Origin: Thraustochytrium sp. TN22
Lineage: Eukaryota; Sar; Bigyra; Thraustochytrida; Thraustochytriidae
Direction: 5' to 3'
DNA length: 64,000 bases
Assembly (NCBI GenBank): GCA_013306675.1
Contig: JABLUY010000200.1
Span: forward strand, 1 to 64,000
Shown here: positions 9,860 to 53,800 of the stretch, piece after piece
Position numbering within the stretch: the stretch's first letter is position 1
Layout: each line of letters opens with the position of its first letter
Notes under the pieces: generated by a model
Seen by the model: the letters and a program-made list of their open reading frames with translations, nothing else
The model's database searches: none
What the model was told of the DNA's origin: nothing
Translations under genes and position numbers: made by a program

Positions 9860-10572
9860 TGCGCTCGCGATGGAATACGATTCTGCTACATTGCTGGCGC
9901 AGCCGATTCTGCTGCCGAAGCTGTCTGATGCAAGGCAGAAGCTTTTGCCTTGGGCCCATTGACCTCGACGGACAGCGCAACTTCCCCATCATTTTTTGAC
10001 TACTTCGCGCTGAACGACCATGTTGGATGAGACATCAACACTGCGCTGGACCTCTTCAAGGGCGTTTGTGTGTGTTTACAAGGTGGGGCAACTCTCACCT
10101 TCGCAAGCAGGGCGCCGTGCTTCATGCTGATCGAGGCGCAAGGACTTTTCTTTATCCCTTGCCTTCATCCAGCAATCACAAACGGGACAGGGTGACGGTG
10201 CCACGCGGGGCAGCGAGCCCGTCGTTGCGATCGCCGACACTCTGGTCGACGACAAATCCCTCAGCCTCATCTCCCTGCATTGTCCGGCTTCAACCTCAGC
10301 GACCTCGCGCCGTTGGCCCAGGCCGTAGCATGGCCGCCAGCATTTGCGTGCTACCGCTTGACGAGCTCGCCGCAAGGCCCGCAAGTGAGGCCTGCTGGCC
10401 GCGTCCAAAGCCGGAGAACCCAACGCACCACAAAGTCGTCATCTGGCGGTAATTCTCGCGTCCAGCGCGCTTTCTTCCTGGCTGGCTCTGCATGCGCCTT
10501 CACACTGACGTGCCCCAGGAAGTAAACGAGCACTTGACCGACGACCTCTATGACAACTTTCAACAGAAGCTG
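9860..10572 (+). pseudogene. Possible decayed host coding region (unidentified)
   Basis: Base composition here is more balanced than the flanks, and fragments in different plus-strand frames read like real protein, though none is long. Examples are a piece with DINTALDLFKGV (about 10034-10069), one with EPVVAIADTLVDDKSLSLIS (about 10218-10277) and one with GFNLSDLAPLAQAVA (about 10283-10330). The last two together resemble one leucine-rich repeat of the ribonuclease-inhibitor type. I could not recognise a family or an intact start or stop, so this is a tentative relic of a host gene. Chance open frames remain possible. Confidence 0.25.
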
Positions 10573-10909
10573 CTCAAGCACCAAGAAATGGACGCATGCT
10601 CAAGCACCAAGAAATGGCCGCATGCTCAAGCACCAAGAAATGGCCGCATGCTCAAGTTTAAGAAATGGCCGCATGCTCAAGGTTTAAGAAATGGCCGCAT
10701 GCTCAAGCACCAAGAAATGACCGCATGCTCAAGCACCAAGAAATGGCCGCATGCTCAAGGACCAAAAAATGGCCGCATGCTCAAGCACCAAGAAATGGCC
10801 GCATGCTCAAGCACCAAGAAATGGCCGCATGCTCAAGCACCAAGAAATGGCCGCATGCTCAAGCACCAAAAAATGACCGCATGCTCAAGCACCAAGGAAT
10901 GACCGCATG
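10573..10909 (+). repeat. 26-bp minisatellite, 13 copies
   Basis: Thirteen head-to-tail copies of a unit reading CTCAAGCACCAAGAAATGG then CCGCATG. Twelve are 26 bp and one is 25 bp. Variants include GTTTA or TTTA in place of CACCA (copies 4-5), GACC (copy 8) and ATGACC in the last copies. Because 26 is not a multiple of three, the translation cycles through frames, yet two plus-strand frames stay open across much of the array. That is most easily explained by the unit lacking stops in those frames rather than by coding. Confidence 0.95.
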
Positions 10910-14979: not shown

Positions 14980-15867
14980 ATGGAGTCGGCGGCCGTGGAG
15001 GACGCGGCGCCGCGCGGCGAGGCACCGCGCAGGTCGCTGTCGAAGCAGCCGACCGTGGACGAGGTGCTCTTCTCGCTGCGCGGCGCGCCGTTCAGGCGCG
15101 CGGACCTGCGCGAGTTCATGGCCGGCGAGTACAATGAGGAGAATGTGGACTTTTGGGCCATGGCGGAGGAGTACAGGCAGGTGTTCGGGCAGGGCCAGGC
15201 GCCGCGCGTGGTGCGCGTCTCGGAGACTGTGCCCATGGAAGCCGCGGCCGCGTCCAAGCAGATCGTGAGCACCTTCGTGGCCGCGGGCTCGCCGCAGGAG
15301 GTGAACCTGAGCAGCTCGATGCGCGACACGGCCCTGCGCAAGGCCAGCGAGGGCCACCCGGACGCCTTTCTGGCGCCGCAGGAGGAGGTGCGTAGGCTCA
15401 TCGTCGACGGCTCCTTCGCGCGCTTTATGAAGCGCAACACGAACCAGAACCTGACGACCGCACATGCCAACTGGCGCTACTGGTTCGGCGTCAAGCTCCT
15501 GGCGCTCGCCGTCATGGTTACGGGCGCTGTCCTGGCGCTCGAATTCACCGAGGTGGTGGACACGCCCCTCTTGCGCCTCATTACCTGGCTCATCTTCGTG
15601 GGCGGCTTCGGCTACCTGGTCTCAGGCTACCAGCGCGTCTGATCCGGGCTCGGTCTGAGGGGGCTGCGCATGCGCGAGCGCATGGGCAGGACATGGTTTG
15701 ACATTTTCCGCCGCACCGTCTCGGACGACGAGCTGGTCGACGACTTTGCGCTGCGGCGCCTGCGCTACCGCGCGCTCAAGCAGATCGTGCTGGCCATGCT
15801 CTTTGGCACACTCACCACCGTGGTCATTCTGCTGCTGCCGATTGGCGCCAACGACTGGTTCTTTTGA
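14980..15867 (+). CDS. RGS-domain multi-pass membrane protein, Rax1-like; candidate selenoprotein (UGA-Sec at 15640-15642)
   Basis: The first 220 codons (ATG in context AGG-ATG-G) encode an RGS domain (about residues 35-155, with LREFMAGEYNEENVDFWAMA and a C-terminal FARFMKRN) followed by two membrane segments (about 164-187 and 195-215). Codon 221 is TGA. The same frame then continues for 74 codons with clear protein character: a basic juxtamembrane stretch (GLRMRERMGRTWFDIFRRT), a short acidic helix and a third membrane segment (about 265-286), ending at TGA 15865-15867. RGS plus C-terminal membrane helices is the fungal Rax1-like layout. A SECIS-like hairpin lies 82 bp past the second stop (15950-16000), so I read the first TGA as selenocysteine, giving 295 residues. 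I recall, but cannot check, that Rax1-like proteins have a Cys at the equivalent Y-x-x-[IV]-C position. Without recoding the product would be a 220-residue two-helix protein. RGS domains accelerate G-alpha GTP hydrolysis; Rax1 acts in polarity and bud-site marking in yeast. Confidence 0.8.
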
Positions 15868-15949
15868 GCGACCTTTACTAGAAACACCTTTCGCGCGCAC
15901 GATCGACGGCGTTTCCCCTTTGTTCAATCGTGGTCATGGAGCAAGAATG

Positions 15950-16000
15950 ATGACGCGCGGCCCCACAAAGCAGACACAGCGTCTGCGGAGGCCGCGCCGA
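15950..16000 (+). promoter_or_regulatory. SECIS element (form II-like) in the 3' UTR of the RGS gene
   Basis: All core SECIS parts are visible in order. The 5' quartet strand is ATGAC (A at 15950, TGA at 15951-15953). Helix II is GCGCGGCC (15955-15962) pairing perfectly with GGCCGCGC (15990-15997). It extends by CC/GG (15963-15964 with 15987-15988) across one bulged A. A 5'-side bulge ACAAA (15965-15969) carries the AAR-type motif 13 nt after the quartet TGA. A small apical helix follows, GCAGAC (15970-15975) with GTCTGC (15981-15986) and loop ACAGC. The 3' quartet strand is CGA, with GA at 15999-16000. One C-C mismatch flanks the quartet. The flanks allow a weak helix I. The bulge plus mini-helix is the form II layout. 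It lies about 310 nt after the in-frame UGA. Confidence 0.8.
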
Positions 16001-16230
16001 CCTTTTGTGCAAGCCCTCGCGCCTCGCGCTGCGCCGCTTCTCGCCGACCCCCCTCCGGTGGGTTGTGGCGCGCGCGAACGGCTGTGCTTGCCTCTCTGCT
16101 CCACCCTCGTGCCGTCGTCGTTCGGTGCCGCCTTTTTCTATGCTACTACTTTTTCTCTGTGTCATGATGTCATCTGGTACCACCTACTTTTTCATGTGAT
16201 CATCCTTCCGCCGCCGCCTTCAAACGAACA

Positions 16231-16236
16231 AATAAA
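16231..16236 (+). terminator. Polyadenylation signal AATAAA for the RGS gene
   Basis: A perfect AATAAA in an A-rich patch about 360 bp after the second RGS stop codon. If used, it would place the SECIS hairpin inside the 3' UTR. The rest of 15868-16410 is the convergent 3' flank shared with the AGC kinase on the minus strand and shows no other feature. Confidence 0.55.
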
Positions 16237-16410
16237 AACAAGAGACCCGAATCAACCCAGGTCAACCAACTGCACCTGAGCGCTGACCGTGACGCCGCTT
16301 CGAGAAATAATCTACAAATCGTTTGAGGATTGGGCTTTGCTCACGTGGAGCTCTCATGTTCACAATGTGGTGCCAATCACCGAGGCCAGGCAGGGAGGCA
16401 AGGCTCAATT

Positions 16411-19400
16411 TTACTCCTCAGGCGGGAACGAAAAGCCTGCACAGAGCGAGGCCTGATGGTAGACCTGGACCTCGGGGTTCTTGAAGCAGAGACCCGGGAC
16501 AGGGTCGTCCGCGCGCGACCGCGCACGGCGATTGTGCCGGCGCGGGATCTTGTGCTGGCCAAAGCGCTTGGGCGCGCCAATGAGCGGCTGCGTGCGGCCC
16601 GATGAGGCGTGATGCGCGGCGTCGCCGTTCCGCGCATCACCGGCGCGCAGCGGCGCAAAGGAGTCCGTGAGCGCGCTGCCGGGGAAGCTCTCAAGCAGGA
16701 TGCTCACGTCCTCCTGCTGGTCCGGCTCGGCAACGGGCGGCTCGATCTCGGGTGACTCCTTGGTCTCGACCATCTCCTCCATGAGCAGGAAGGCCTCGTC
16801 CTCGTCAATGGGGTCGTTGATGATTGGGCCCTCGCCCGGCTCCTGCACGCGGCTGTTCTCGTCCTCGGACAGGCCGTCCTCGTCCTCGTCCATGTCCTCG
16901 CCCGTGCTGGCGCCAGCGGCGCTTCCGTCGGAGCCGCTGCCGCCGGCCGCGGAGGCGCCGGCGCCGTCGCTGCCGCCGGCCGCACGCGCCTGCTGCGTGG
17001 CGGCCGAGGGCCGCAGCGTTGAGGCGCGCGACTCAAGCGTGTAGCGGCGGAGCAGGTCGGTCGGTTCCATGGTGCCCTGCTGCACGCGCACCCAGTCGAC
17101 GCCGGCGAAGAACGGGTGCGAGGCCACCTCGAGCGTGGCGCCGTAGCCGAGACGGGCGCGCGGCTCGTGCGAGAGCAGGCGGCGCAGCATGTCGCGGCAG
17201 GCGTCAGAGACGGAGAGGATCTTGCCATGCGCCACGTCCGGCAGCGGCGTGAAGGCCGCGCGGATGATGCGGTCCTCCAGGGCCTTGGTGTCGCGCTCGT
17301 AAAAGGCCGGCGACCCGGAAAGCAGCTCGTGCACCACGCAGCCGAACTGCCACCAGTCCACCATGAGGTCGTGGCCGACGCCTCGCAGCATCTCAGGCGC
17401 CATGTAGAAGCTCGTGCCGCAGATGGTGTAGGAGCGGTCGTAGTCCGGGCGGCGCTCGCACAAACAGAGCACCTCGGAGGGGTCCAGCGCGGAGCTGGCG
17501 CCGCAGGCGCAGCGGCGCCGCCGGTTCCGGCCCGGCGTGTTGCTGGTGCCGACAGACGAGCTCGAGGAGAAATGCGACGCGAGCGAGATCTTGCCACCCA
17601 CGGACGCGGCCCGCACCATGCCGCCGTTTTGCACGCCGTGAGCGGGCGAAGGCGCCGGCGAGCCGATCACCGAGGACGAGGACAGCGCGGACGCGACCAC
17701 GATGCCGTTGCCAGACGGCGGCGACGAGGACAGCGGCGACGAGGACAGCGGCGACTGATGCTGCGGCTGGAGATCGATGCTTGAGGTGCTCGCGTGACTG
17801 CTGCTGCTGTTGCGGAGGACAGCCGGGCTGAGCGCGCTGGGTGGAGAGCTGGCGCCGGGCCCGCGGCCGCGGCGCAAAAACGCCAGCAGGCCGCGCGGCT
17901 GCGAGGCGCCAAAGGCCGGCACGTCCTCGAGCACGTTCCGCTTGCGCGTGCGGCGCAGGTGCAGCGTAGACAGCGTGAGGAAGCGCGCGAGGCCAAAATC
18001 CGTGAGCTTGACGTGGCCCGTAGCCGTGAGAAGAATGTTCTCCGGCTTGAGGTCGCGGTGCACGATGCCCTCCGTGTGAAGGCAGTGCAGCGCGGAGACG
18101 AGCTCGGCCGCCACGAATCGCACCGTGTCCTCGGGCAGGATCTTCTTGGCGCGCAGCAGCGCCCAAAGGTCGCCGGACGGGCAAAGCTCGCAGGCGAAGT
18201 AGAGCGCGCCCGAGTCGTGGAAGGCGAAGAGCAGACGAGTGATGGCCTTGCAGCGCGCCGTGGACGCACGCTCCAGCACGAGCTTCTCCATCATGAGCAT
18301 GTCCAGGTGCGAGCGGTCCAAGGGCACGGCCTTGAGAGCCATGGGCGTGCCGGTCTGGCGGTGCTTGACCATGAGCACTCGGCCAAAGTGGCCTGTGCCG
18401 ATTTGCGCCACGGGCTTGAGGTCCGAGAGCGCGATAGGCTGCTGCACCAGGCTAGCGGCCGCCAAGAGCGCGTCGCGCTCCTGCTCCGACACGCACACCA
18501 GCTCGTACATGAGGCCGGCGCGCGCCGCGGCGGCCACGGAGCCGCCGGCCGCGCCGGTGCCGGCGTTGCCAGCCCCGCCATTCCGGGCCGCGTCGTTGCC
18601 TGCCGCGGCCGTGTTCAAAGAGGCCTCGAAGGTGGCGGCCGTGCTGACACCGAGCAGCGAGGAGGCAGACTCGGTCTTGGGCGGGAGAATGACTGACGAG
18701 GCCGAAGCCACTGAGGAGTCGGAGGCCTCGCGCGGGCGCGTCTCCGAGGGCGCCGGGCGCAGCAAGTCATCGTCCTGGCGGGACACACCGGTGGCTGGCG
18801 CCTGCGTTTGGCCCTTTGTCTGCTGCTGTGCCGCTCCGCCGCCGCCGCGCCGCGTGCCGGAAGGCGGCGGCGAGACGGACCGCCGCTGCGTGCGCGCCTC
18901 GGCCAGGCTCGGCACGCGCGGGCGGCCAGCGATGGAGTGCGGGCGACGCCCGCGAACATGACGACGCGAGGGCCGCGGCCGCGGCCGCAAGAGGACCTCC
19001 TTGTCGCGCAGACCGGGCTGCAGCTCCCACTCAGACATCCAGAAGACAAGGTCCGGGATGCGGCGGCCGTGCACGGTGCGCACGGGCTCCTTGGTCGAGC
19101 CGACGTCGTACCAGAGCAGGAGGTCCGACTTGATGACGAGCTCGACCGGGCTGGTCTTGCTCGGCAGGAACCTGCGGCGCTGGCGCACGCGCGCCGTGCA
19201 GGCGTACATGGGCCGCAGGCGCTCCAGGTGGTCGAGCTTGACGAGGTTGCCGCCGAGCGACGCGGCGCCGCCGGCCAGCGCGCCCTGCGCGGCCGCCTGC
19301 GTGCTCGGCGGGGGCTGGCCTGTTGCATTGGGCGCCCCGGGCAGCATCAGGTTGGCTGGCAGCGACCCGTTGCGCCGCATCGCGCTGGCGCCGCTCAGAC

Positions 19401-19623
19401 TGCCGCTGCGCCGCTTGCCGCGGTCGCCGGCCGTCGCGCCGCCGCCGGCCGCCTTGGTTGTGCGCGGCGGCTCGCACCTCAGCAGGGACTCGGGCCGCAC
19501 CACCTTGACGCGGGCGACGGCTCCGCCGTTCCCGCCGCTGGCCGCGGCGGCGGCAGCGGCCGCTGCTGCGCCGCCGCCGCCGCCGTTCCCGCCCGCCGCC
19601 GCGGCGCCCTTGGCGGACGCCAT
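16411..19623 (-). CDS. AGC-family serine/threonine kinase with a giant activation-loop insert
   Basis: 1,070 residues from the ATG at 19621-19623 (MASAKGAAAAGG); the frame is open upstream but contains no ATG. The catalytic domain begins near residue 399 with the glycine loop IGTGHFGRV and the lysine motif MALKAV. The catalytic loop is HRDLKPENIL (about 522), followed by DFG (about 542), then CGTSFYMAPEM (about 735-745). The order and the end HPFFAGVDW are AGC-kinase features (S6K/RSK/AKT-like). Unusually, about 195 residues separate DFG from APE. They are Ser-rich and end with a small Cys cluster (RRRRCACGAS ... LCLCERR). Residues of about 135-390 may contain a split PH-like domain (KTSPVELVIKSDLLLWYD ... 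MYELVCVSEQERDALL), but this is weak. The C-tail is acidic and Ser-rich with no clear hydrophobic motif. Upstream signalling is unknown. Confidence 0.88.
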   Translation of the reverse strand: MASAKGAAAAGGNGGGGGAAAAAAAAAASGGNGGAVARVKVVRPESLLRCEPPRTTKAAGGGATAGDRGKRRSGSLSGASAMRRNGSLPANLMLPGAPNATGQPPPSTQAAAQGALAGGAASLGGNLVKLDHLERLRPMYACTARVRQRRRFLPSKTSPVELVIKSDLLLWYDVGSTKEPVRTVHGRRIPDLVFWMSEWELQPGLRDKEVLLRPRPRPSRRHVRGRRPHSIAGRPRVPSLAEARTQRRSVSPPPSGTRRGGGGAAQQQTKGQTQAPATGVSRQDDDLLRPAPSETRPREASDSSVASASSVILPPKTESASSLLGVSTAATFEASLNTAAAGNDAARNGGAGNAGTGAAGGSVAAAARAGLMYELVCVSEQERDALLAAASLVQQPIALSDLKPVAQIGTGHFGRVLMVKHRQTGTPMALKAVPLDRSHLDMLMMEKLVLERASTARCKAITRLLFAFHDSGALYFACELCPSGDLWALLRAKKILPEDTVRFVAAELVSALHCLHTEGIVHRDLKPENILLTATGHVKLTDFGLARFLTLSTLHLRRTRKRNVLEDVPAFGASQPRGLLAFLRRGRGPGASSPPSALSPAVLRNSSSSHASTSSIDLQPQHQSPLSSSPLSSSPPSGNGIVVASALSSSSVIGSPAPSPAHGVQNGGMVRAASVGGKISLASHFSSSSSVGTSNTPGRNRRRRCACGASSALDPSEVLCLCERRPDYDRSYTICGTSFYMAPEMLRGVGHDLMVDWWQFGCVVHELLSGSPAFYERDTKALEDRIIRAAFTPLPDVAHGKILSVSDACRDMLRRLLSHEPRARLGYGATLEVASHPFFAGVDWVRVQQGTMEPTDLLRRYTLESRASTLRPSAATQQARAAGGSDGAGASAAGGSGSDGSAAGASTGEDMDEDEDGLSEDENSRVQEPGEGPIINDPIDEDEAFLLMEEMVETKESPEIEPPVAEPDQQEDVSILLESFPGSALTDSFAPLRAGDARNGDAAHHASSGRTQPLIGAPKRFGQHKIPRRHNRRARSRADDPVPGLCFKNPEVQVYHQASLCAGFSFPPEE

Positions 19624-19713
19624 GCCGTCGGCGAGCCTGTGCCTGGGTCCGTGCCGGCGCGCGACGCTCTCGGCGTCGACGCGGAGGCCGTCTCGCCCCA
19701 CGCCGTGCCTGGC

Positions 19714-19736
19714 CTGCTCTGCTCTGCTCTGCTCTG
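19714..19736. repeat. Pentanucleotide repeat (CTGCT)4
   Basis: Four CTGCT units plus a partial, about 90 bp upstream of the AGC-kinase start codon. Confidence 0.85.
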
Positions 19737-19771
19737 CGCGTGCGTGCGCGGGGGCGGCGCCGCTCCTCGCA

Positions 19772-19806
19772 GCGCCGCGCCGCGCCGCGCCGCGCCGCGC
19801 CGCGCC
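19772..19806. repeat. Pentanucleotide repeat (GCGCC)7
   Basis: Seven perfect GCGCC units in the promoter-proximal region of the AGC kinase. Confidence 0.9.
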
Positions 19807-19872
19807 GTGCAGGGACGAGACGCGGGGCGCGCTGGCGCTTGCTCGCGGCGCGCTTTGCTTGTCGCTTGCTCT

Positions 19873-19908
19873 TTGCTTGCTTGCTTGCTTGCTTGCGTGC
19901 GTGCGTGC
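19873..19908. repeat. Tetranucleotide repeat (TTGC)6 (GTGC)3
   Basis: Six TTGC units grading into three GTGC units, upstream of the AGC kinase. Confidence 0.9.
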
Positions 19909-21266
19909 TTGTGCGCTTGCTCTCCTGCCTCTCACTCTCTCTCTCCCCCGGCCTCACTCACTGTCGTCAGTCTGCTTGCTGTTGCAACTTGCTGTTGAGT
20001 TGTTGTGTCGAGCTCGCGAAGTGGCGGGGAGGAAGGGCCGGGCGAGCTGAGGATGGACGGGGCAGGAGGAGGGAGGGCGAGGGCCCCCGCGGTGAGGCCG
20101 GGTGGCGCGGGCCGCGCGACGCCCGCCGCGTTGCGGAGCCGGGCTGCGCGTGGCGCAGCCGGTTACGGCGCGGCGGCTGGCTCAGGTTGGCTGGTTGGTC
20201 CCCGTCACGTCACGCCGCCGCCGCCGGATGCGAGAATGCGGAGGGCGATTGGGCGAGCGAGCGGGCGAGCGAGCGAGTGAGCGGCGGCGAGCTTCACTGC
20301 TCAGTCAGGGCGCGCCCGGGCTTCCGTCAATTTGTTCTTCTCCGGCTCAGCGCGGCGCCAGTGCCAGCGCCAGTGCTGGCTGACGGTAGCGTGCGGCACG
20401 TCACCGGTGCGGCACGGCGCACGGAGACTCGTGATCGACCCGACACTGCCGCCTTTTCCACGCGGCGCTGCGGACAGCAGGGCTGTTGTTGAGCTCCACC
20501 AGTGCGGCGCGGGCTCCTCCCGCGGCGGCGCGCGCCGGGTGGCGGCCGCGGTCGACTCGCCTCGCCTCGCCTGGCCAGCAAGCGGTTGCTTGCCAGGCAG
20601 CGCCGCGGCGCCGCCGCCAACGGGCCGGCCGGAGGACCACGGCTGGCAGCGCGCGCAGCCCGAGCCCGGCTGCGTCTGTTTCGCCCCCGCGAGCTTGGCG
20701 CGAGTCCCTGCGACTCGAGCGAGCGCGCCGCCGCGGGTGCGGAGCGCGGCGCCTGGCTGTCTGTTGTTGCCGGTTGGGCCCGTGCGAGCCGTGCGGCGAG
20801 GAGGTCCGACGCCGACTTGGAGCTGCCGAAGCTGCCTGGCAGCCCAGGCAGGCAGAATCAGGCTGGCTGCTGGAGCAGCTGGACCCCCCCGGCCGGCCTC
20901 GGGCCGTCACAAGCAGGCAGCCGCCGGCCACGGACGACAGCGAGCCCGGCCTGCAGTGTCAGCCTCGCACGGGACGGACGACGACAGCGCCGCGGCCACG
21001 AGAAGCCGCCTTTCGGACCTCTCTCGGCCTGGCAATTCGAGCGAGGCGAGGCAACCTCGGCCCCTTCTGCGCACGACCCTGGTCCAGCTGGCCCGGCGAG
21101 CGCAGCCTCGCGCCTCGCGAGCGGCGCGAGCCTCGCGTGCAGGAGCGCCTCCGCCGCCGCACGCCGCTCGAACCTTGAAGTTTTGCCTGCGACGATTGAA
21201 TTTTCAAAACGATTTGAATTTTCAAACTCCTGCGCGCCACGCCACGGGCCACGCCACGCCAAGCGA

Positions 21267-41905: not shown

Positions 41906-43301
41906 AAGAAGCCTGATGTGAGTGATGAAACAAGAAAAGCAGCAGAAACAATGGCAACGAAGTCTGAGTCAGTCACGGTCCGTCAGGAACTGTCCGGCAC
42001 TTGCAGTCGGCCGACTGCTGCAACTTGATCAATGCTACACATCACAGCCAAGCTCAGTTTGCGCGCAGGGGCGGCAGGCAACGGCGGTCGTCTCGTGGGT
42101 TTTCCTTCTCTCCGCTGGCACTCGCATCTGCGCCTCTCGTCCGAGCTCGGATCTCTTTGAGCCTTGACTTACAGTTAGGGCTGTTCGCGTTGCAGTGATT
42201 TGCGTAGCCCCCCAGCCTCGAAGCGCTCGACACCATCCTTGCGCGCGCGCTCTAGTAGCTAGCTAGACTGCGCAGAAGTAAATTTGGCACTGGCAACACT
42301 TGCAGCCACACGTACACCGCATCCGTAACTCGAAAAGAGCGGCGATTGTGCAGACGGTGCAACTGAGACGCAGCAAAACTCGAACCGACGAGAGGGGTGC
42401 CAGACTCGGACTCGGAGGCGAGAGAGCCTCTGTCACTCGAACTGCCCAGTCGCCCCTGAGGCTTGGTCTCGCGGCAGCTCCAAGCTTGCATGGCCGGGCC
42501 GGGAGGTACGCCACTCGGTGCGGTGATGGCAGCCGCTCTGGAGCCCGCTTGAACTTGAAAATCCCGGCTCACGCAGGCTTTTGCTGCGGGGCAGCGAGTG
42601 GCTTAGGGCCACCCAAGACTTGGATCGACTGTCGCGCTGCTAAGTGACCCGGTCGCTCTCTCATTCAACTGCTGCTGCAAGGCACTGGCAGGCACGCCGC
42701 CACTGGCAGGGCGGGCCTGCCAGTGAGGGGAAGTACCAAAGTACCCAAGGTAGTAAAGATCAGGTGGCCAAAGTGTGCAGGAGTCACGGTCCAGCAACGC
42801 AGGTCGCCTCAAAGGTCACCTGCGGAAATTGCACTGGCATGAAAGTTAGTGACCACACATCCTCCCTCGCTCAGCTCGCGGCGGCGCCGCGGTGCCGCGA
42901 CTCGGACACGTGCGCAGAAGTCAGATCCTGCGGCGCGACAAGTGGGCGCGCGTCCACTGCAACCTAGCGGCCCTGGCTGCATGGCCGGCCACGCGTGCCG
43001 CCGCTAACCCTAATAATCTCTTTTGCAAGGCTGCGGCTGCGCCGTTACAGTTCACCTTGCACTCTGGTGAATACACGAGAATCAAAAGACGGCCGACTGG
43101 CGCCGACTGGGAGGACTGCGGAGGAGGACGGTCGCGCCCATATGGGTTCCGCACACGACACTTGGCGCGCGCCCAGATTGGAGATGGCAAGCGCAGCCAG
43201 TGAGCAAAGCCGCAACGCGCAGCTGCACCGCGCAGCAAAGCTGCAACCTGGGTTGGGGTCGAGCTCCAGCTCGCTCAGACTGCCTCGGACTTCGAAGAAC
43301 C
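41906..43301. other. Spacer upstream of giant surface protein A
   Basis: 1.4 kb with no supported gene. It contains a GAGTCC-type cluster (about 42393-42411), a perfect 10-bp hairpin (42701-42725), CACTGGCAG motifs (42682 and in the hairpin) and a single TAACCCTAA (about 43004-43014). The last 300 bp are less GC-rich and form the presumed promoter and 5' UTR of copy A. Confidence 0.4.
42701..42725. repeat. Perfect hairpin, 10-bp arms
   Basis: CACTGGCAGG (42701-42710) and its exact reverse complement CCTGCCAGTG (42716-42725) are separated by GCGGG. A third CACTGGCAGG starts 18 bp upstream at 42683. It could be a strong DNA or RNA hairpin, or a dyad protein site. Confidence 0.85.
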
Positions 43302-46300
43302 ATGACGACCTTGTGCATCGCGGTGCTTGCTGTGCTCATCGTACTCGTTGAGCGGGCCGCGATCATCCACGGAGCGGAGCAGACTGTGCCGGACGTTCCG
43401 TACGGGCCCGAGAACCCTTACCCGCATCCAGGCTGCACCATCATCAATAGGAGCAAACACCCTGTTACCTTTCCAGTCGAGGGCTCGTCCAGGTATAGAT
43501 ACTCCTACGTGTCGCTCACTGTCGTCAGCAGTGCAAGTGAGTGCCGAGCTTCGTGTGCTACAGCTATGTTGACGTCAGGCTACTTCGGGACTGGTGAAGA
43601 AGAAGACATGCCCTGCGTTGCATGGAAGTATATGAGATTTACCTCCGATGGCGACGGGATGTGCAGGCACTTCTACCCGGCTCCGTCTGATTACAGCTAT
43701 TACTTCAATGCCTACGAGCACCCTTTACAGGATTCCATCGGCGTGACAGGACTCATGGACTGCCCTGGAGACTTTGACGCGCTGAACGTATGGGCCGTGG
43801 CAGCTGGCAGCCAGGGTTGCATGCTGGACGACTACAATTCAAACGGTTTCACCATCGCTTCCTACACCCTCGTTGCGAACGAGCACGACTGCCGACGCCT
43901 GTGCCAGGAGAACGATGAGTGCGAGCTTTTCACCTTTCACGATACGCTATATAACAGGTGCTACCTCAGGACCCATGAAGCCATCGAGACGCTGACGCAA
44001 CCGATGGGCGAGAGCATACATAGAGACCGCACGACTGGCGCCAAATATTGCGCTACGTGCAAGCCAGGGTTCTACATTGACACGTCGCGCTCGGAGTGGG
44101 ACAAGTGCGTGCCGTGCCCGGCTGGCTACGCCTGCGACGATAGCGAGATCCTGGCCCTGTGCAGTTCTGCGTGGGGATCTACAGGCGAGGTCTCCGCGAA
44201 CCGGGCAAGCTGTGTCTGTCGCAGCGGCTACACTCAAGCTGATTGCAGCGAGTTCGAGAACGGCTGCGGGGACTGGGCACTGGACGGGTTCGTCAACGAC
44301 GGCGCGCATGACGCCTGTGGCTGCCTGGACGGCACGAATGGTCGTACCTGCGCGACCTTCAGCCATGTTGATACTGAAGATGACATGGACGACTTCTGCG
44401 ACGCGTTGCTGGCCGAGGAACCAGCGGAGCGGTGCCCGTGTGGCCACGTACGTGACGAGGATGGCAGCTGCGTGGCGCCATCCGGCACGACAACGCCGGA
44501 GCTCTCTTGCCCGCTCGGGTCTGTGCCTGTGGGCGATGCCTGCCTCTTTGCTGCGGGCGTCCCGCACTCCAACGCGGATGCGCGCGCCGTGTGCAGCACG
44601 CTAGGAATGACGCTCGCCACCGGAACGCCGAGCGCTATCACCGACTTGACAAGCCTCTTCGAGACGGCCAAGGGGACCTCGGGCGCGGAGGCCCTGGTTG
44701 GGATGGACTTGCTTTGGCTCGGCGTGCGCTGGGCGGGCATCCTGCATCCACTCACAAGGGCACTTCCCGTGGATGGCAACCTGAGCGACATCCTCCTGGA
44801 GACCGCTGCGTGGGACGACGGAACGGTCTTCACCATCGACGACGCGCGTTTCGCGCCGGGCATCAGCGTCCTGGACGACGGCGGGAACCGCACCTGTCTG
44901 GCGCTCAACATTAGCGACGGCCTCCTGCACGCGCGCGACTGCGCCGAGGCGCTCGGCACGGTCTGCCAGACCCCTGCTGTCTACGGCCAGTGCGCGAGTG
45001 GCTTCGTCTTTGACCCTGCCGAGAGCCTTTGCAAACCATCCGACCTGCGCACGTCGCCAAACTGCTATTCGGGCTGGACGGAGATGCGTGGCGGCTGCGT
45101 CAAGCTCGACTCAACTGCAGCGAGCTTCACGGATGCCGAGGCGAGCTGCGCGGACGCCGGAGGCCATCTCGCCTCGGTGCTCGACGCCGACGAGATGGCC
45201 GTCGTCGAGTCTCTGGCGAGTGGCGAGACCGGCGGCGCGTGGGTCGGTCTTGCTCGCACGACCGGAGCGGACGACGCATGGAACGACGGCTTCGAGGTGG
45301 ACGCGACCCTGATCGACCTTACGACGGACGGCTGCCTCTACGTGTCGGGCTCTGGCTGGCTCATGGACTCAGATTGCGGAACGGTGCGGCCGTTTGTGTG
45401 CATGCAGGACCAGCCGCGCCAGTGTGCGGACGGCTCGTACCTGGTCAAGGCCGCGGACGGCACCTTTGCCTGCGAGAAGCTCGGCACGGGACTCTACACA
45501 GGCTACCTGCAAGAGTCCTATTGCGCCAAGAGTGCGTTGGAGTCCGCCAACGCGACCCGCCGGGCCGCTGGCGCCGCGCTGCTGGACTCGACCGCGCGCT
45601 GCATGGAGTCTGCTGCAAGCCAGAGCTCAACCGCGTTCTCTGCGCAGCTCGAGCGACTTGCTGAAGTCGGTCAGAGCGCCCTCCTTGCGGCCTACTTTGA
45701 TACTGAGCATGCACCGATCGACGACTACGAGCCGGCGGACAATGTCACCATGTACGACTTGTACAAGACGTCGGACCCGTTCTACTACGCCACCACATCA
45801 GTGCTGCTCGACGGACTGGCGCTCTTCGGCCCGGGCCTCGGCTCGTACCGCCAGGTGCCGCTGACCTCGGACGTGCAGGCCTTCCTCAAGGTCAACACGC
45901 CAGCCTTCGGCTCTTGCCGACGCCTGCCGTGCCCGTGCGGCCAGGTGCGCGCCGCGGACAATGAGTGCTACGAGATTGACGACTCCGACGCCGGCCACTA
46001 CGCGCGCGTGCAGCTGGAGCTTTATGCAGCTTACGCCCGGTGCGCGCTTGTGCCACGAAAGCAGCGCCGCGCTCACCTCACCTTCGCGCCCATGGACCAG
46101 TTCTTCTCCCGTGCCATCTTCTGCTTGCGCGGCATGGACACCAGCGAGGAGAGCCGCGTGGACGCCGACAGCCAGCTGGCTGCCGTCGAGGTCATTCTCA
46201 ACATGATCGAGCTGGACGCCTCGGCGTACGGTAACACCGACCGCCTCGACAAGCAGCGGAAGCTGGCGGGTGAGCTGCGTGACAGCCTGGCGCAAGCGCC

Positions 46301-49300
46301 GCTGGTCTCGCTCACCGTGCCGCAGTACGCGCTGGAGTTCACCAAAGCGCAGATTACGACGCTGGCCGACAAGTACGAGTCACGCGCGCACTTCTCGCTC
46401 GCGCAGGAGCTCAAGGACGACCTCGAAAATACAATCAAGTCCGAACTGACGCTGCTGGGCCAGCAGCTAGAGGCCGGCCTCGAGGCCGGCCTCGCCAGGG
46501 TCGAGGCTGGCCTCGAGGCCGGCTTTGAAATCATTTCGGCGCAGCTGACGGAGCTCTCGGATCAAATGGCCAAGGGCTTCTCGAGCGTGCACGAATCCTT
46601 CGCGGCGGACGCCGCGACGTCCATCGCCATGAAAGAGTCCGAGGTCGAAGCCCTGGCCGAGAACATGGACGATGTGTACGAGCGGGCCATGGGCTCCTAC
46701 GCCTCCATGGAGTCCTGGCGGGTGACGTATGAGCAAGCCCTCGACGAGATGAAAGAGATCATCTTCCGCATGGTCGACATTCAGAACGAGTACAATGACG
46801 TCAAGGAGACTCTCGAAGATCTCAGGGCGGAGCGAGCGAGGGTGGGCCGGATCATGGATATCCTCAAGGTTGTCGGAGGAGTCTGCCTCATGGCAGCCGC
46901 CGTGGTTCCCGGCGTTGGCCCGGCCATCGCGGCAGCGGGTGCTGGCATCATTCTTTCAGCGCTCCCTTCGCGCAGGCGGACTCTCGAGACTCAGGTACTG
47001 CACGAGCGTACACACGCACGCGCGATGGCCACAGACCCGGCTTCGTGCACCTTCCTTAGCCTTGCGAGCGCCGTACACGATTCCGCCATCCGTCAGACCG
47101 CGGCGGGTACGGTCCTTACCAGTGCAGCGCAAGGCGCTGCGTCCCGAACAGGCTCTCACCTATCCACGCTTCGCCTCCAGAACCCGTCTTCCGCTGCCGC
47201 GAATACGCGCCTGGCAACTTCAAAGTCTAAGGTCCGCGTGGCAGTCCCGGACCAAAGCGCGGTCTGCGCAACGCCCATCGTCAACGCGACGCGGAGCGAA
47301 GCGCGCAAGCTGCTCGACGATCAGATCGAGCACCTCCAGAGCCTGGGCGTCGTCACTGGTATTGACGCCGCCGGGGCTGCCTCGCGCATGACTAATTTCC
47401 TCGACGCGGTGGAGGACGTGTTGGGCGTTGGGAGCAGCAGCAGTGCGGTGACGAGCGCGGAGACCGTGGTCAAGCTCGAGCACGCGGATCCAGAGGTTTG
47501 CGACGGCACACTCACCGTGTACCAATGCTCGCACCGTGCTGGCAGCATCCCGAGTGTGGTTGTCTCGTGCTGCGCCCTGCAACAGCGTGAAGCTGGCTCG
47601 TTTCTAGAGTCCACCTGTGAGCTGCCCTCCTTGGTGGTGCTCGTCGGCCTTGACGTGGAATGCGAGGTGCGCACGGACAACTCAGACAGGACGCTCACGC
47701 GCAACCCGAACGAGCTTGGGGCCAAAAACAAGCACGTCTACGCGCAGTGCACCCAGTCGCAACAGTCGGTCGTGCGAGGCGAGGCCATGATGGACCGCTC
47801 GCGCTTGGCCGAGGCCTTCCGCTTGAGCGTCTGCGTGGACGGCCTGGAGATCACGGCCACCAAGGCGGACGCTGGCTTGGACACGCCGTCCGGCTTCTGG
47901 ATCGATGCGCTCACGGTCGCCTGCCCGACCGGCGACGCGCCAGGCGCTTGCAAGGACCCGGCAGGCGACCGTCGATGCGAGGACTGCCGGCGGCTCAAGG
48001 GCGACGCATACGAGTCCACGGTATCGACACGGCGTCAGCTTCTCGCACGAAGGGCGAGCTCGCCACGCGTGACCGAGGCGATTCCGCGGGACTGGGTGCT
48101 TCGCCGCGGCTTCAGGCCAACAGATCCCGGCATCTCGCGCGCCGATGGCTCTGACGTCGACGGCGATCGTCGTGCGCTCGGCCTGTTCTCCGCGGCAATC
48201 GCGATCGGCAAGAAGGGATGGAACAGCTTCTCCAAGACGCAAGACAAGGCCACGTGGTCCAATAAGATCCAAAACGGCGCAGTGAATACGGAAGACACCG
48301 TTCATGCTGCAGGGGTACTCGGAGAGATCATCCATCTCGCCACCGCCGAGATCCAGATCGAGCCCGTCCCGGACCTGCCCTACGTCCCGTCCTCAGACGT
48401 CGTGAAGAATTCCTTTGATATCCTCACGGAGCTGCTCAACAAGATCGCCGACACCATGATCACGCTCAACACGCGCCTTCTGTCCATGATTTTCGACGCG
48501 GAGTACTTTGCCGATGCCGATGAGGACGGCGTCTCGGACGAGGCGCTGCAGCACCCGGTGCTTTGGGACAGCATCTACGCCGAGTTCATGGACCTCCTCG
48601 AGTACGATCTCTCGCTCTGCCCTAAACTCGTGGACGACTCGGACTCGGATCTCGGGGCGCAGGAGCGTCGCCGCCTGCTCCAAGTCCTGGAGGACGAGGT
48701 CGTCGAGCGGCGTACCGCGCTGCGGCGCCGCCTCGGCATGCGACCTGTGGATGCAGTCGACCTGCGCCGCAGCCTCAAGACCAAGAGGAAGCTGGACGCA
48801 GAAATCGCTGAAAAGGAGGCTCGTCTCGAGGAGCTGCGCGAGGAGTACCGCGAGGAGCGCAAGAAGCTGACCACGGCGTGCGGCCACTTTCGCAGCGCGG
48901 TGCGCCAGGTCACCATCTTCGGCAAGGCCGTCCACGAGTCCTACATCGAGCTCATCGACCTCTTCCGCCGCGGCAAGGTGCTGGTCTCCAACATGGCCGA
49001 CCTTGAGGAGCGCCAGGCTGCCGCTGAGCAGACCGCGCAGGAGATGTTCCTCGACGGGACCAGCGTCTCGCCCTTGATGGCTCGCGCGACGCTGTCCACA
49101 CAGGTGGCGAGCTTCGCCGTGGACCGCGCAACGCTGGCGCAGGATGCCGTCGAGGCCTTCCACGAGACCATGTTCCAGGAGAGCATCATGTCGATGCAGA
49201 CCGTGGCGGAGGAGGCCCTGGTGGACTTTTGCGCCTCGGTCATCTACAGCGACCCGGACATGCTCAACAGCATCGGGGCCTTTTGCAACGCCGGCTACGA

Positions 49301-50411
49301 CGGCCGCGGTCTGGGCAGCTACTCGCTGCTCACGCTGTCGGAGCGTCTCCGCAGCGCGGCCAACTCCATCGAGAAGTCGCTCGTCGACCAGTACATCGAG
49401 TACGGCCTGTTCGAGGCGGATCTGGCTGTGCTGGACGTGAGCGAGCTCATTGACTTTGCGCGGCTCCGGAGCGAGGGCAGCGGCAGCTTCCGCTTGGAGG
49501 GGCCTCAGGGCGGCTTCGCGGTGCGCCCGGACAACTACACCATCAGTGCCGGCCTGGCGCGTGGCGGGCCCTACTACTGCACGGAGGACGACTCGCTCAA
49601 GCTCGACAACCTCGAGATGGAGACGGTTGGCATGCTCTTTTACGACGCGGACGGCAACCTACTCGGGCCGGTCGCCAATCAGGGCTCCATGACCGTGGAT
49701 ATCAAGCTGCATGGGCCCTTTGTCAAGTCTCGCAGCGGGGCGTCCTACGCCTTCTCGATGCGGTCTTACGACAACCTTCGCTACTCATACCACCTCCCCA
49801 CCGAGGACGGACTCTGCACGGGCGGCTCGCCGACGCTGCTTGGCACGCTCTGTGTTGCCGGCGCGCAGTCTCAGATCGACACGAGCAGGCAGGCGCGGCC
49901 CACGCCGTACGCCACCTGGGACTTTGCCATCTTGGGCAGCGGTTCCGCATTTCTCGAGCGTATTGACTCCGTGAAGATCATTGCAGACCTCCGGGGCATT
50001 CGCAACGACGACCTGGCGTGCCGCGTCGAGACAACGCAGTACCGCGAGGAGGTGGCCGAGACCGGGAGCGCAGCTTCTGACCCGGACGGGTCAAGCCCCG
50101 CCGGCCTCATCGTAGGCGTCGTCATCGGCGCTCTGGCCGCTGTTGGTCTTGCCGCAGTTTTCGTCGTGCGCCGGGTGCGCCGTCGCCGTGCCCAGCAGGC
50201 CGTGGGTTCCGTCGGCCCACAGGACGGGGCATCGCTCACGGTTGCGGCCGCCAACCCGTCCTATGAAGGCACGGCTTCGGCCGACGAGCGCCGGCCCAGC
50301 TCAGGCGCAATGGCGGGTCGGCTGAGCGCCATGCTCAGTTCTTTGGGCCTCACTCGCGAGCAGGCTGTTCGCTACATGTCCGACACTCCGGGCTCGGGCT
50401 CGGCCCAGTGA
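43302..50411 (+). CDS. Giant type I surface protein, copy A (PAN/Apple, C-type-lectin-like, helical hydrophobic core)
   Basis: 2,369 residues. The ATG at 43302 starts a classic signal peptide (MTTLCIAVLAVLIVLVE..., cleavage near residue 24). Then come two PAN/Apple-like Cys modules (about 45-130 and 172-235), a Cys-rich ephrin-receptor-like module (about 245-350, KPGFYID ... CVPCPAGYAC), and two C-type-lectin-like domains (about 402-560 and 586-703; the second has WVGL and GSGWLMDSDCG). A long helical region follows (about 720-1185), with an expansion of EAGLEAGL repeats (about 1056-1075). Next is a 35-residue Gly/Ala-rich hydrophobic segment (about 1188-1222, PGVGPAIAAAGAGIILSALP) followed by SRRR. 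Residues 1230-2250 alternate Cys-containing and coiled-coil blocks (for example KTKRKLDAEIAEKEARLEEL). A membrane segment (about 2266-2290) and a tail with NPSY complete it. N-glycosylation sequons are common. Function is unknown; an adhesion or recognition receptor is plausible. Paralogue of the genes at 50882 and 59648. Confidence 0.9.
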   Translation: MTTLCIAVLAVLIVLVERAAIIHGAEQTVPDVPYGPENPYPHPGCTIINRSKHPVTFPVEGSSRYRYSYVSLTVVSSASECRASCATAMLTSGYFGTGEEEDMPCVAWKYMRFTSDGDGMCRHFYPAPSDYSYYFNAYEHPLQDSIGVTGLMDCPGDFDALNVWAVAAGSQGCMLDDYNSNGFTIASYTLVANEHDCRRLCQENDECELFTFHDTLYNRCYLRTHEAIETLTQPMGESIHRDRTTGAKYCATCKPGFYIDTSRSEWDKCVPCPAGYACDDSEILALCSSAWGSTGEVSANRASCVCRSGYTQADCSEFENGCGDWALDGFVNDGAHDACGCLDGTNGRTCATFSHVDTEDDMDDFCDALLAEEPAERCPCGHVRDEDGSCVAPSGTTTPELSCPLGSVPVGDACLFAAGVPHSNADARAVCSTLGMTLATGTPSAITDLTSLFETAKGTSGAEALVGMDLLWLGVRWAGILHPLTRALPVDGNLSDILLETAAWDDGTVFTIDDARFAPGISVLDDGGNRTCLALNISDGLLHARDCAEALGTVCQTPAVYGQCASGFVFDPAESLCKPSDLRTSPNCYSGWTEMRGGCVKLDSTAASFTDAEASCADAGGHLASVLDADEMAVVESLASGETGGAWVGLARTTGADDAWNDGFEVDATLIDLTTDGCLYVSGSGWLMDSDCGTVRPFVCMQDQPRQCADGSYLVKAADGTFACEKLGTGLYTGYLQESYCAKSALESANATRRAAGAALLDSTARCMESAASQSSTAFSAQLERLAEVGQSALLAAYFDTEHAPIDDYEPADNVTMYDLYKTSDPFYYATTSVLLDGLALFGPGLGSYRQVPLTSDVQAFLKVNTPAFGSCRRLPCPCGQVRAADNECYEIDDSDAGHYARVQLELYAAYARCALVPRKQRRAHLTFAPMDQFFSRAIFCLRGMDTSEESRVDADSQLAAVEVILNMIELDASAYGNTDRLDKQRKLAGELRDSLAQAPLVSLTVPQYALEFTKAQITTLADKYESRAHFSLAQELKDDLENTIKSELTLLGQQLEAGLEAGLARVEAGLEAGFEIISAQLTELSDQMAKGFSSVHESFAADAATSIAMKESEVEALAENMDDVYERAMGSYASMESWRVTYEQALDEMKEIIFRMVDIQNEYNDVKETLEDLRAERARVGRIMDILKVVGGVCLMAAAVVPGVGPAIAAAGAGIILSALPSRRRTLETQVLHERTHARAMATDPASCTFLSLASAVHDSAIRQTAAGTVLTSAAQGAASRTGSHLSTLRLQNPSSAAANTRLATSKSKVRVAVPDQSAVCATPIVNATRSEARKLLDDQIEHLQSLGVVTGIDAAGAASRMTNFLDAVEDVLGVGSSSSAVTSAETVVKLEHADPEVCDGTLTVYQCSHRAGSIPSVVVSCCALQQREAGSFLESTCELPSLVVLVGLDVECEVRTDNSDRTLTRNPNELGAKNKHVYAQCTQSQQSVVRGEAMMDRSRLAEAFRLSVCVDGLEITATKADAGLDTPSGFWIDALTVACPTGDAPGACKDPAGDRRCEDCRRLKGDAYESTVSTRRQLLARRASSPRVTEAIPRDWVLRRGFRPTDPGISRADGSDVDGDRRALGLFSAAIAIGKKGWNSFSKTQDKATWSNKIQNGAVNTEDTVHAAGVLGEIIHLATAEIQIEPVPDLPYVPSSDVVKNSFDILTELLNKIADTMITLNTRLLSMIFDAEYFADADEDGVSDEALQHPVLWDSIYAEFMDLLEYDLSLCPKLVDDSDSDLGAQERRRLLQVLEDEVVERRTALRRRLGMRPVDAVDLRRSLKTKRKLDAEIAEKEARLEELREEYREERKKLTTACGHFRSAVRQVTIFGKAVHESYIELIDLFRRGKVLVSNMADLEERQAAAEQTAQEMFLDGTSVSPLMARATLSTQVASFAVDRATLAQDAVEAFHETMFQESIMSMQTVAEEALVDFCASVIYSDPDMLNSIGAFCNAGYDGRGLGSYSLLTLSERLRSAANSIEKSLVDQYIEYGLFEADLAVLDVSELIDFARLRSEGSGSFRLEGPQGGFAVRPDNYTISAGLARGGPYYCTEDDSLKLDNLEMETVGMLFYDADGNLLGPVANQGSMTVDIKLHGPFVKSRSGASYAFSMRSYDNLRYSYHLPTEDGLCTGGSPTLLGTLCVAGAQSQIDTSRQARPTPYATWDFAILGSGSAFLERIDSVKIIADLRGIRNDDLACRVETTQYREEVAETGSAASDPDGSSPAGLIVGVVIGALAAVGLAAVFVVRRVRRRRAQQAVGSVGPQDGASLTVAAANPSYEGTASADERRPSSGAMAGRLSAMLSSLGLTREQAVRYMSDTPGSGSAQ

Positions 50412-50881: not shown

Positions 50882-53800
50882 TCAATGGGCCGAGCCCGAG
50901 CCGGGAGTGTCGGACATGTAGCGAACAGCCTGCTCGCGAGTGAGGCCCAGAGAACTGAGCATGGCGCTCAGCCGACCCGCCATTGCGCCTGAGCTCGGCC
51001 GGCGCTCGTCGGCCGAAGCCGTGCCTTCGTAGGACGGCTTAGCGTCCGTAACTGTGAGCGATGCCCCTGCCTGTTGGCCGACAGAACCGTCGGCCTGCTG
51101 AGCACGGCGACGGCGCACCCGACGCACGACGAAAAAGGCGGCGACGCCAACAGTAGCCAGAACGCCAATGGTCACGCCTGCGATGAGGCCAGCGGAACTC
51201 GAATCTTCCGGGGCACTACTGGTCACGGCCTCCACCTCCTCGCGGTACTGTGTGGTCTCGACGCGGCACTCGAGATCGTCGTTGCGAATACCTCGGAGAT
51301 CGGCGACAATCCTGACAGAATCGATGCGATCAAGAAAGGCGGAACCGCTACCCGAGATGGTAAAGTCCCAAGTGGCGTATGGCGTGGGCCGCGCCTGCTT
51401 GCTCGTGTCAACCTGTGACTGCGCGCCAGCAACACAGAGCGTGCCAAGCAGCGTCGGCGAGCCGCCCGTGCAGAGTCCGTCCTCGGTGGGAAGGTGGTAC
51501 GAGTAGCGAAGGTTGTCGTAGGACCGCATCGAGAAGGCGTAGGACGCCCCGCTGCGAGACTTGACAAAGGGCCCATGCAGCTTGATATCCACGGTCATGG
51601 AGCCCTGATTCGCGACCGGTCCGAGTAGGTTGCCGTCCGCGTCGTAAAAGAGCATGCCAACCGTCTCCATCTCGAGGTTGTCGAGCTTGAGCGAGTCGTC
51701 CTCCGTGCAGTAGTAGGGTCCGCCACGCGCCAGGCCAGCGCTGATGGTGTAGTTGTCCGGGCGAACGGCAAAGCCGCCCTGAGGCCCCTCGAGGCGAAAG
51801 CTGCCGCTGCCCTCGCTTCGGAGCCGCTCAAAGTCGATGAGCTCGCTCACGTCCAGTATGGCGAGGTCCGCCTCGATGAGGCCGTACTCGATGTACTGGT
51901 CGACGAGCGACTTCTCGATGGAGTTGGCCGCGCTGCGGAGGCGCTCCGACAGCGTGAGCAGCGAGTAGCTGCCCAGTCCACGGCCGTCGTAGCCGGCGTT
52001 GCAAAAGGCCTCGATGCTGTTGAGCATGTCCGGGTCGCTGTAGATGACCGAGGCGCAAAAGTCCACCAGGGCCTCCTCCGCCACGGTCTGCATTGACATG
52101 ATGCTCTCCTGGAACATGGTCTCGTGGAAGGCCTCGACGGCATCCTGCGCCAGCGTTGCGCGGTCCACGGCGAAGCTCGCCACCTGTGTGGACAGCGTCG
52201 CGCGAGCCATCACGGGCGAGACGCTGGTCCCGTCGAGGAACATCTCCTGCGCGGTCTGCTCAGCGGCAGCCTGGCGCTCCTCAAGGTCGGCCATGTTGGA
52301 GACCAGCACCTTGCCGCGGCGGAAGAGGTCGATGAGCTCGATGTAGGACTCGTGCACCGCCTTGCCGAAGATGGTGACCTGGCGCACCGCACTGCGAAAG
52401 TGGCCGCACGCCGTGGTCAGCTTCTTGCGCTCCTCGCGGTACGCCTCGCGCAGCTCCTCAAGGTGAGCCTCCTTTTCAGCGATTTCTGCGTCCAGCTTCC
52501 TCTTCGTTTTGAGGCTGCGGCGCAGGTCGACTGCATCCACAGGTCGCATGCCGAGGCGGCGCCGCAGCGCAGTACGCCGCTCGACGACATCGTCCTCCAG
52601 CACCTGGAGCCGGCGGCGACGCTCCTCTGCGCCGAGCTCCGAATCGGCGCCGTCGTCCACGAGCTTGGGGCAGATGGAGAGGTCGTACTCGAGGAGGTCC
52701 ATGAACTCGGCGTAGATGCTGTCCCAGAGCGCCGGGTGCTCCAACGCCTCGCCCGAGACGCCGTCCTCCTCGGCATCGGCATAGTACTCCGCGTCGAAAA
52801 CCATGGCGATGAGGCGGGTGTTGAGCGTCATCATGGTGTCGGCGATCTTGTTGAGCAGCTCCGTAAGGACGTCGAAGGAGTTCTTGATCACGTCCGTAGA
52901 CGGCACGTAGGGCAAGTCGGGGACGGGCTCGATCTGAATCTCGGTCGTGGCGAGACGGATGATCTCTCCAAGAACACCCGCCGCCTGCAAATTGTCCTCC
53001 ACCTCAGTCGCGCTCTTGCTCCACTTCTTTGCGGTCTGTGTCTTGCTGAAGCTCGCGGCTGCATTCTTTCCGACAACAAACGCCGAGGAGAAGATACCGA
53101 GTTCACGGCGTCTGTTGCTGGCGTCTGAGCTGTCTGCGCGCGAGATGCCGGGGTCATCGGGCTTGGAGCCGCGGCGAAGTGCCCAGTCCCGCGGGATAGC
53201 CTCGGTCACGCGCGGTGAGCTCGCTCTCCGCGTGAGCAGCTGCCGCCGTGTCGACACCGTGGACGTGGTGGCGTCGCCCTTGAGCCGGCGGCAGTTCTCG
53301 CAGCGACGGTCGCCGGCGACGTCCTTGCAGGCGCCTGGCGCGTCGCCGGTCGGGCACGCCACCGTGAGCGCGTCGATCCAGAAGCCGGAGGGCGTGTCCA
53401 GCCCAGCGTCTGCCTTGGTGGCCGTGACCTCGAGGCCGTCCACGCAGGCGCTCAGGCGGAAGGCCTCGGCCAGGCGCGAGCGGTCCATCATGGCCTCGCC
53501 TCGCACGATCGACTGCTGCGACTGGGTGCACTGCGCGTAGACGTGCTTGTTTTGCGTTCCGAGCTCGTTCGGACTGTGCGTGAGGGTCCTATCCGAGTTG
53601 TCCGTGCGCACCTCGCAGTCCACACCCAGGTCGTCGAGCTCTGCCGCGGAGGGCAGCTCGCAGGTGGACTCCAAAAAGGAGCCCGACCCGCTCTGCTGCA
53701 GGGCGCAGCACGAGACGACCACGTCAGGGAGGCCACCGGCGAGACGCGAGCATTGGTACACGGTGAGCGCGCCATCGCACACCTCCGCGTCCGCGTGCTT

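Follow-up and report, generated by a model that had tools for sequence, protein, structure and literature searches.

In the window, by which we mean the whole 64,000-nucleotide stretch of DNA analysed here, one gene raises the question of whether an in-frame TGA is a stop codon or a codon for selenocysteine (Sec). The gene encodes an RGS-domain protein. Its frame starts with the ATG at 14980, reaches a TGA at codon 221, the only proposed Sec codon in the gene, and continues for 74 sense codons to a second TGA. A sequence-only reading of this DNA had pointed to the TGA at codon 221, to the open frame of 74 codons beyond it and to an AATAAA at 16231, and had proposed that the RGS membrane protein is a selenoprotein. 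These elements are all present in the sequence, and the proposal is supported by the agreement of a coding signal past the TGA, a plan of an RGS domain plus three transmembrane segments and a SECIS element in the 3′UTR. We conclude that the gene very probably encodes a true selenoprotein, with UGA 221 read as selenocysteine. The features of the locus are as follows.

14980-15867, + strand: coding sequence of the proposed selenoprotein, 295 residues with Sec at 221, ending with the TGA at 15865-15867
15103-15447, + strand: RGS domain, residues 42-156 (Pfam PF00615, E 5.8e-14; best PDB match RGS4, E 7.6e-9)
15478-15558, + strand: hydrophobic segment 1, residues 167-193 (hydropathy)
15565-15624, + strand: hydrophobic segment 2, residues 196-215 (hydropathy)
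15640-15642, + strand: in-frame TGA, proposed selenocysteine codon 221 (sequence and frame)
15664-15689, + strand: hairpin that begins 21 nt after the UGA, a possible, weakly indicated stimulator resembling a redefinition element (folding)
15772-15852, + strand: hydrophobic segment 3, residues 265-291, encoded 3′ of the TGA (hydropathy)
15941-16010, + strand: putative form II SECIS element (predicted fold, motif scans, shuffles)
16231-16236, + strand: AATAAA, likely polyadenylation signal (sequence)
16411-19935, opposite strand to the RGS gene and directly downstream of it: protein kinase gene

The GC content of the window is 60-76% per 2 kb, and its genes are long, single-frame and of eukaryotic type; in style they might belong to a thraustochytrid-like or another GC-rich protist. 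A Pfam scan of 10 open reading frames or parts of them, run as 11 pieces with one gene split into two, matched an RRM protein, an ABC1-PH protein, an ion channel with a cyclic-nucleotide domain, a protein kinase, a BTB-pentapeptide protein, a WD40 protein, a class-III aminotransferase and a giant protein; three pieces had no Pfam match. The giant gene at 43200-50411 (+), to which Pfam assigns a C-type lectin domain and, with a weak match, PAN, lies end to end with a second giant single-frame gene at 50882-57985 (-). The two are inverted paralogues with 78% identity over 2392 residues and ~85% at the DNA level. An array of ~26-base repeats (gcggccatttcttggtgcttgagcat) was spotted by eye at 10580-10890 (-), in a stretch without coding signal. 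No tRNA genes were found in the window by ARAGORN.

The RGS domain aligns with RGS4 over residues 41-160 and retains the EEN, NL and S..RF stretches, which we take to be the basis of GAP activity in RGS domains. Their retention relative to RGS4 makes GAP activity plausible. Two hydrophobic segments follow the domain and a third is encoded downstream of the TGA, giving, by hydropathy only, the Rax1-like layout of an RGS domain and three C-terminal membrane helices. The third segment had been predicted from the sequence, as had the location of the Sec just past the second membrane helix, and both agree with the hydropathy profile. The 74-residue tail after the TGA has no Pfam family match by itself, and scans of viral and prokaryotic contig collections yielded no confirmed homologue of the RGS protein. 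A single-sequence structure prediction had a mean pLDDT of 46.5 and was left out of the interpretation. There is no cysteine in the protein, which has a chance of 0.002 over 294 residues at the Cys frequency of the window (2.1%); Cys is also scarce in three of ten window genes (0.1%, 0.5% and 0.9%). The proposed Sec would therefore be the sole thiol or selenol residue.

Codon composition was used to assess the frame beyond the TGA. The codon log-odds were trained on 10 other long open reading frames of the window, hand-picked and with two trimmed at the start. The 74 codons past the TGA scored 36.3 versus 39.9 for the 74 codons preceding it; 74-codon windows inside the training genes had a mean of 28.8, with a 5-95% range of -1.0 to 51.8. 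Equal-length stretches after each training gene's stop scored from -37.2 to 0.15, and the one starting at 15868, past the second TGA, scored -17.6. In the remaining frames of the post-TGA stretch, the scores were -28.6 and -40.9 (forward) and -1.6, 9.9 and -48.5 (reverse). With real genes counted in, scores as high were reached in both strands and all frames by 4.6% of 18,224 windows and by 10.3% of the 7,961 that are stop-free. The GC contents of the three codon positions are 0.659/0.455/0.927 upstream of the TGA and 0.635/0.419/0.865 downstream of it; beyond the second TGA, 43 codons give 0.558/0.605/0.605. The coding composition runs on past TGA 221 and stops at the next stop codon.

Directly behind the TGA the score is low, both over 10 codons and over 20, at levels matched by 5.2% and 10.5% of training-gene windows, respectively. 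The weaker score at codons 222-241 would fit a short in-frame intron spanning the TGA, in which case the mature mRNA would be free of the UGA and encode an ordinary RGS protein with three transmembrane segments. With 10 donors in 15480-15639 and 6 acceptors in 15643-15799, there are 38 GT-AG pairs that span the TGA, are at least 40 nt long and have a length divisible by three. However, only 4 of the 38 pass a loose donor rule, all via the single donor GTGGGC, and each of the 10 training genes is one open frame, the longest with 2403 codons. An intron would also leave the SECIS unaccounted for, and we consider it very unlikely. A redefinition element near and 3′ of the UGA is described for some selenoprotein mRNAs in passages of two papers (PMC12936836; PMC3541580), and the hairpin at 15664-15689 may partly explain the low codon score after the TGA. 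The 34-nt window 15660-15693, picked once the hairpin had already been seen, folds at -18.7 kcal/mol, and equal stability was found in 2 of 1000 shuffles and in 1.4% of 6047 coding windows. The fold of the whole 58 nt past the TGA is ordinary, with 25.8% of 3004 as stable.

The putative SECIS is located in the 3′UTR, 307 nt past the UGA and 82 nt past the stop codon of the gene. The sequence-only reading had described a form II layout at 15950-16000, and all the parts that it named are found in the hairpin. Helix I (15941-15947/16004-16010) is short, with 3+3 bp. The quartet ATGA (15950-15953) is followed by a C.C mismatch and has its partner GA at 15999-16000. Helix II consists of 8 bp (15955-15962/15990-15997) and 2 bp beyond a bulged A, 10 bp in total. 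In the unpaired ACAAA (15965-15969), the AAA (15967-15969) starts 13 nt after the quartet, and a 6-bp mini-helix (15970-15975/15981-15986) carries a 5-nt loop. The published SECIS rules are NTGA, 10-13 nt, unpaired AA, 15-39 nt and GA, with energy limits (PMC2375036); the corresponding series here is ATGA, 13 nt, AA, 30 nt and GA, at -29.5 kcal/mol. Shuffles of this 62-nt stretch folded at -17.1 ± 2.9 and none of 200 was as stable. When the stretch was extended to 81 nt, 2 of 200 shuffles were as stable, and at 143 nt the stability was not unusual (25 of 200).

The filters of our strict motif grammar were written with the candidate already seen, and relaxed and minimal scans with fewer filters were therefore run as well. 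The strict scan of both strands (128 kb) gave three matches, among which the SECIS at 15941-16010 is by far the most stable. The match at 2111 on the + strand (TTGA, -10.2) is within chance expectation, which at -10 or better is ~5 strict matches per window (0.8 with ATGA), and was rejected. The match at 10168 on the - strand (ATGA, -11.3) belongs to a weaker SECIS-like hairpin at 10115-10168, whose helix I has 6 bp and whose apical loop contains AAA. The coding signal upstream of it on that strand is unclear, and it is probably a chance match rather than a second SECIS. In 1000 blockwise shuffled windows, strict matches at -29.5 or better had a mean of 0.001 with ATGA and 0.009 with any quartet; at -20 or better the means were 0.077 and 0.48. 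Among the 376-nt post-stop segments of the 10 other genes, one contains a SECIS-like ATGA match, which is weak (-5.2).

Shuffling the 3′UTR itself gave -20 or better in 1 of 20,000 cases under the strict scan with any quartet. Under the minimal ATGA scan, -20 was reached in none of 20,000, -10 in 82 and any match at all in 449. These local shuffles bear on the alternative that the TGA arose by an error in sequencing or assembly, or by a recent nonsense mutation, in a codon that is truly TGC, TGT or TGG. A single base change would be enough, and the 221 column may be Cys in the Rax1-like relatives, as the sequence-only reading suggested. The SECIS in the right place and on the right strand would then be a coincidence of a kind that the minimal scan did not once reproduce at -20 or better, and we regard an error or mutation as extremely unlikely.

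Another alternative is that UGA 221 acts as a plain stop, ordinary readthrough aside, and that the hairpin is a chance structure. The relaxed scan, which applied only the spacing rules from the literature and an energy limit of -12.6 for the whole structure, found 22 matches in the real window, with the SECIS at 15941-16010 the most stable; shuffled windows averaged 28.6 matches. An equally good match occurred somewhere in the 128 kb in 12 of 200 shuffled windows with ATGA and in 49 of 200 with any quartet; GC-rich DNA yields such hairpins fairly often over this length, and as a type the hairpin is not unique there. The hairpin is convincing because it lies so close behind the stop codon, and on the same strand, of a gene whose frame runs through a TGA. 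TGA is also a common stop in the window, where it terminates six of the ten training genes, against three for TAA and one for TAG. However, the codon composition after TGA 221 is that of coding sequence up to the next stop, which makes simple termination highly improbable. Use of UGA as a general sense codon is ruled out by those six genes and by the terminal TGA of the RGS gene itself.

As a single positive control for the scans, we used the core of the rat type 1 deiodinase SECIS. The strict grammar and the minimal one both accepted it, at -11.8, but the relaxed scan, with its limit of -12.6, rejected it; the relaxed scan is therefore not equal to SECISearch. Four viral loci retrieved with a GPx UGA pattern were discarded as SECIS controls, as one frame common to all four is not GPx. 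The general GPx pattern had at least 120 matches, and among the matches listed 118 have Cys at the site and 0 have a stop there. With a gapped UGA-GPx pattern nothing was matched, and there was no usable positive-control SECIS set among the GPx pattern matches. Rfam 15, which we assume to contain SECIS models, gave no SECIS at gathering score in the window or at E <= 10 in 15600-16320, the sensitivity of its models for such elements being uncertain.

Combining these data with the eukaryotic Sec pathway suggests how the selenoprotein could be made and used. In this established pathway, a SECIS hairpin recruits SECISBP2, eEFSec and Sec-tRNA, none of which was seen in the window. The 3′UTR SECIS would recruit the Sec apparatus, UGA 221 would be read as Sec and the ribosome would proceed to the next UGA. 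The predicted product has a cytosolic N-terminal RGS domain, two membrane helices, the Sec and a third membrane helix. We infer the Sec insertion, the membrane topology and every functional step from the sequence. With a cytosolic RGS domain and two helices, residue 221 would be back on the cytosolic face, and the Sec would lie within a basic stretch in the cytosol, about six residues past helix two. A lone Sec has no Cys within the protein with which to form a selenosulfide. Bonding to a partner molecule, dimerization or a part in acyl transfer is therefore likelier than an internal redox pair. The Sec is thus most likely a reactive regulatory site, which may form a mixed selenosulfide or a diselenide dimer, or aid acyl transfer in a SELENOK-like manner. 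A redox role would fit, by analogy and short of proof, the oxidative stress role of Rax1/RgsB in A. fumigatus, where the protein is described as needed for the oxidative stress tolerance of conidia (PMC7693823). The protein might also link G-protein or polarity signalling to redox control, as the sequence-only reading proposed.

When selenium is short, translation would terminate at UGA 221 and yield a 220-residue form with two helices. It is possible, although we hold it as a tentative and rather doubtful idea, that selenium supply toggles a G-protein regulator between the three-helix Sec form and this two-helix form, with altered placement. As part of the same tentative idea, the lone selenol beside the membrane in the three-helix form might sense the redox state or join acyl transfer. 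A G-protein signalling protein would then be under direct selenium control.

In our best reading, the decoding mechanism is standard and the kind of target protein is new among selenoproteins. Eukaryotic selenoproteins of known function are mostly redox enzymes. In the text of the open-access literature, judged partly by titles, we found no RGS-domain selenoprotein. The open-access literature found for Rax1 with selenocysteine concerns plants by title, no open-access paper on thraustochytrid selenoproteins was recognized by title, and the listings from an open-access search for novel protist selenoprotein families gave no lead. Although 42 selenoprotein families are reported in an algal survey, no word of the main text begins with ‘RGS’ (PMC7539508). 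If our conclusion is correct, selenocysteine has been placed in a regulator of heterotrimeric G proteins, and a single Sec in a protein with no Cys would provide a clean setting for testing the chemical role of Sec.

The protein can be compared with several known systems. RGS4 and canonical RGS proteins share with it the aligned RGS domain, and RGS4 presumably has neither membrane helices nor Sec. SELENOK and other small membrane selenoproteins have one Sec in a cytosolic stretch and no adjacent redox partner Cys, similar to the single Sec in a predicted cytosolic stretch with no neighbouring Cys here; unlike our protein, SELENOK is far smaller and is not known to carry an RGS domain. SELENOK is described as working with DHHC6 in palmitoylation (PMC5789314). 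MSP, described as a membrane selenoprotein of Ostreococcus, Chlamydomonas, Volvox and Dictyostelium, is likewise a membrane selenoprotein of microbial eukaryotes (PMC2375036). However, by its description MSP has two Sec residues and the RGS protein has one, which rules out membership in that family. For the fungal Rax1/RgsB family, the passages on Rax1 in two papers do not mention selenocysteine (PMC9506272; PMC7693823), a difference from our protein. The family is alike in layout, on which this comparison is based: in its published plan, three membrane helices come after an RGS domain at the N terminus (PMC9506272), the arrangement predicted here.
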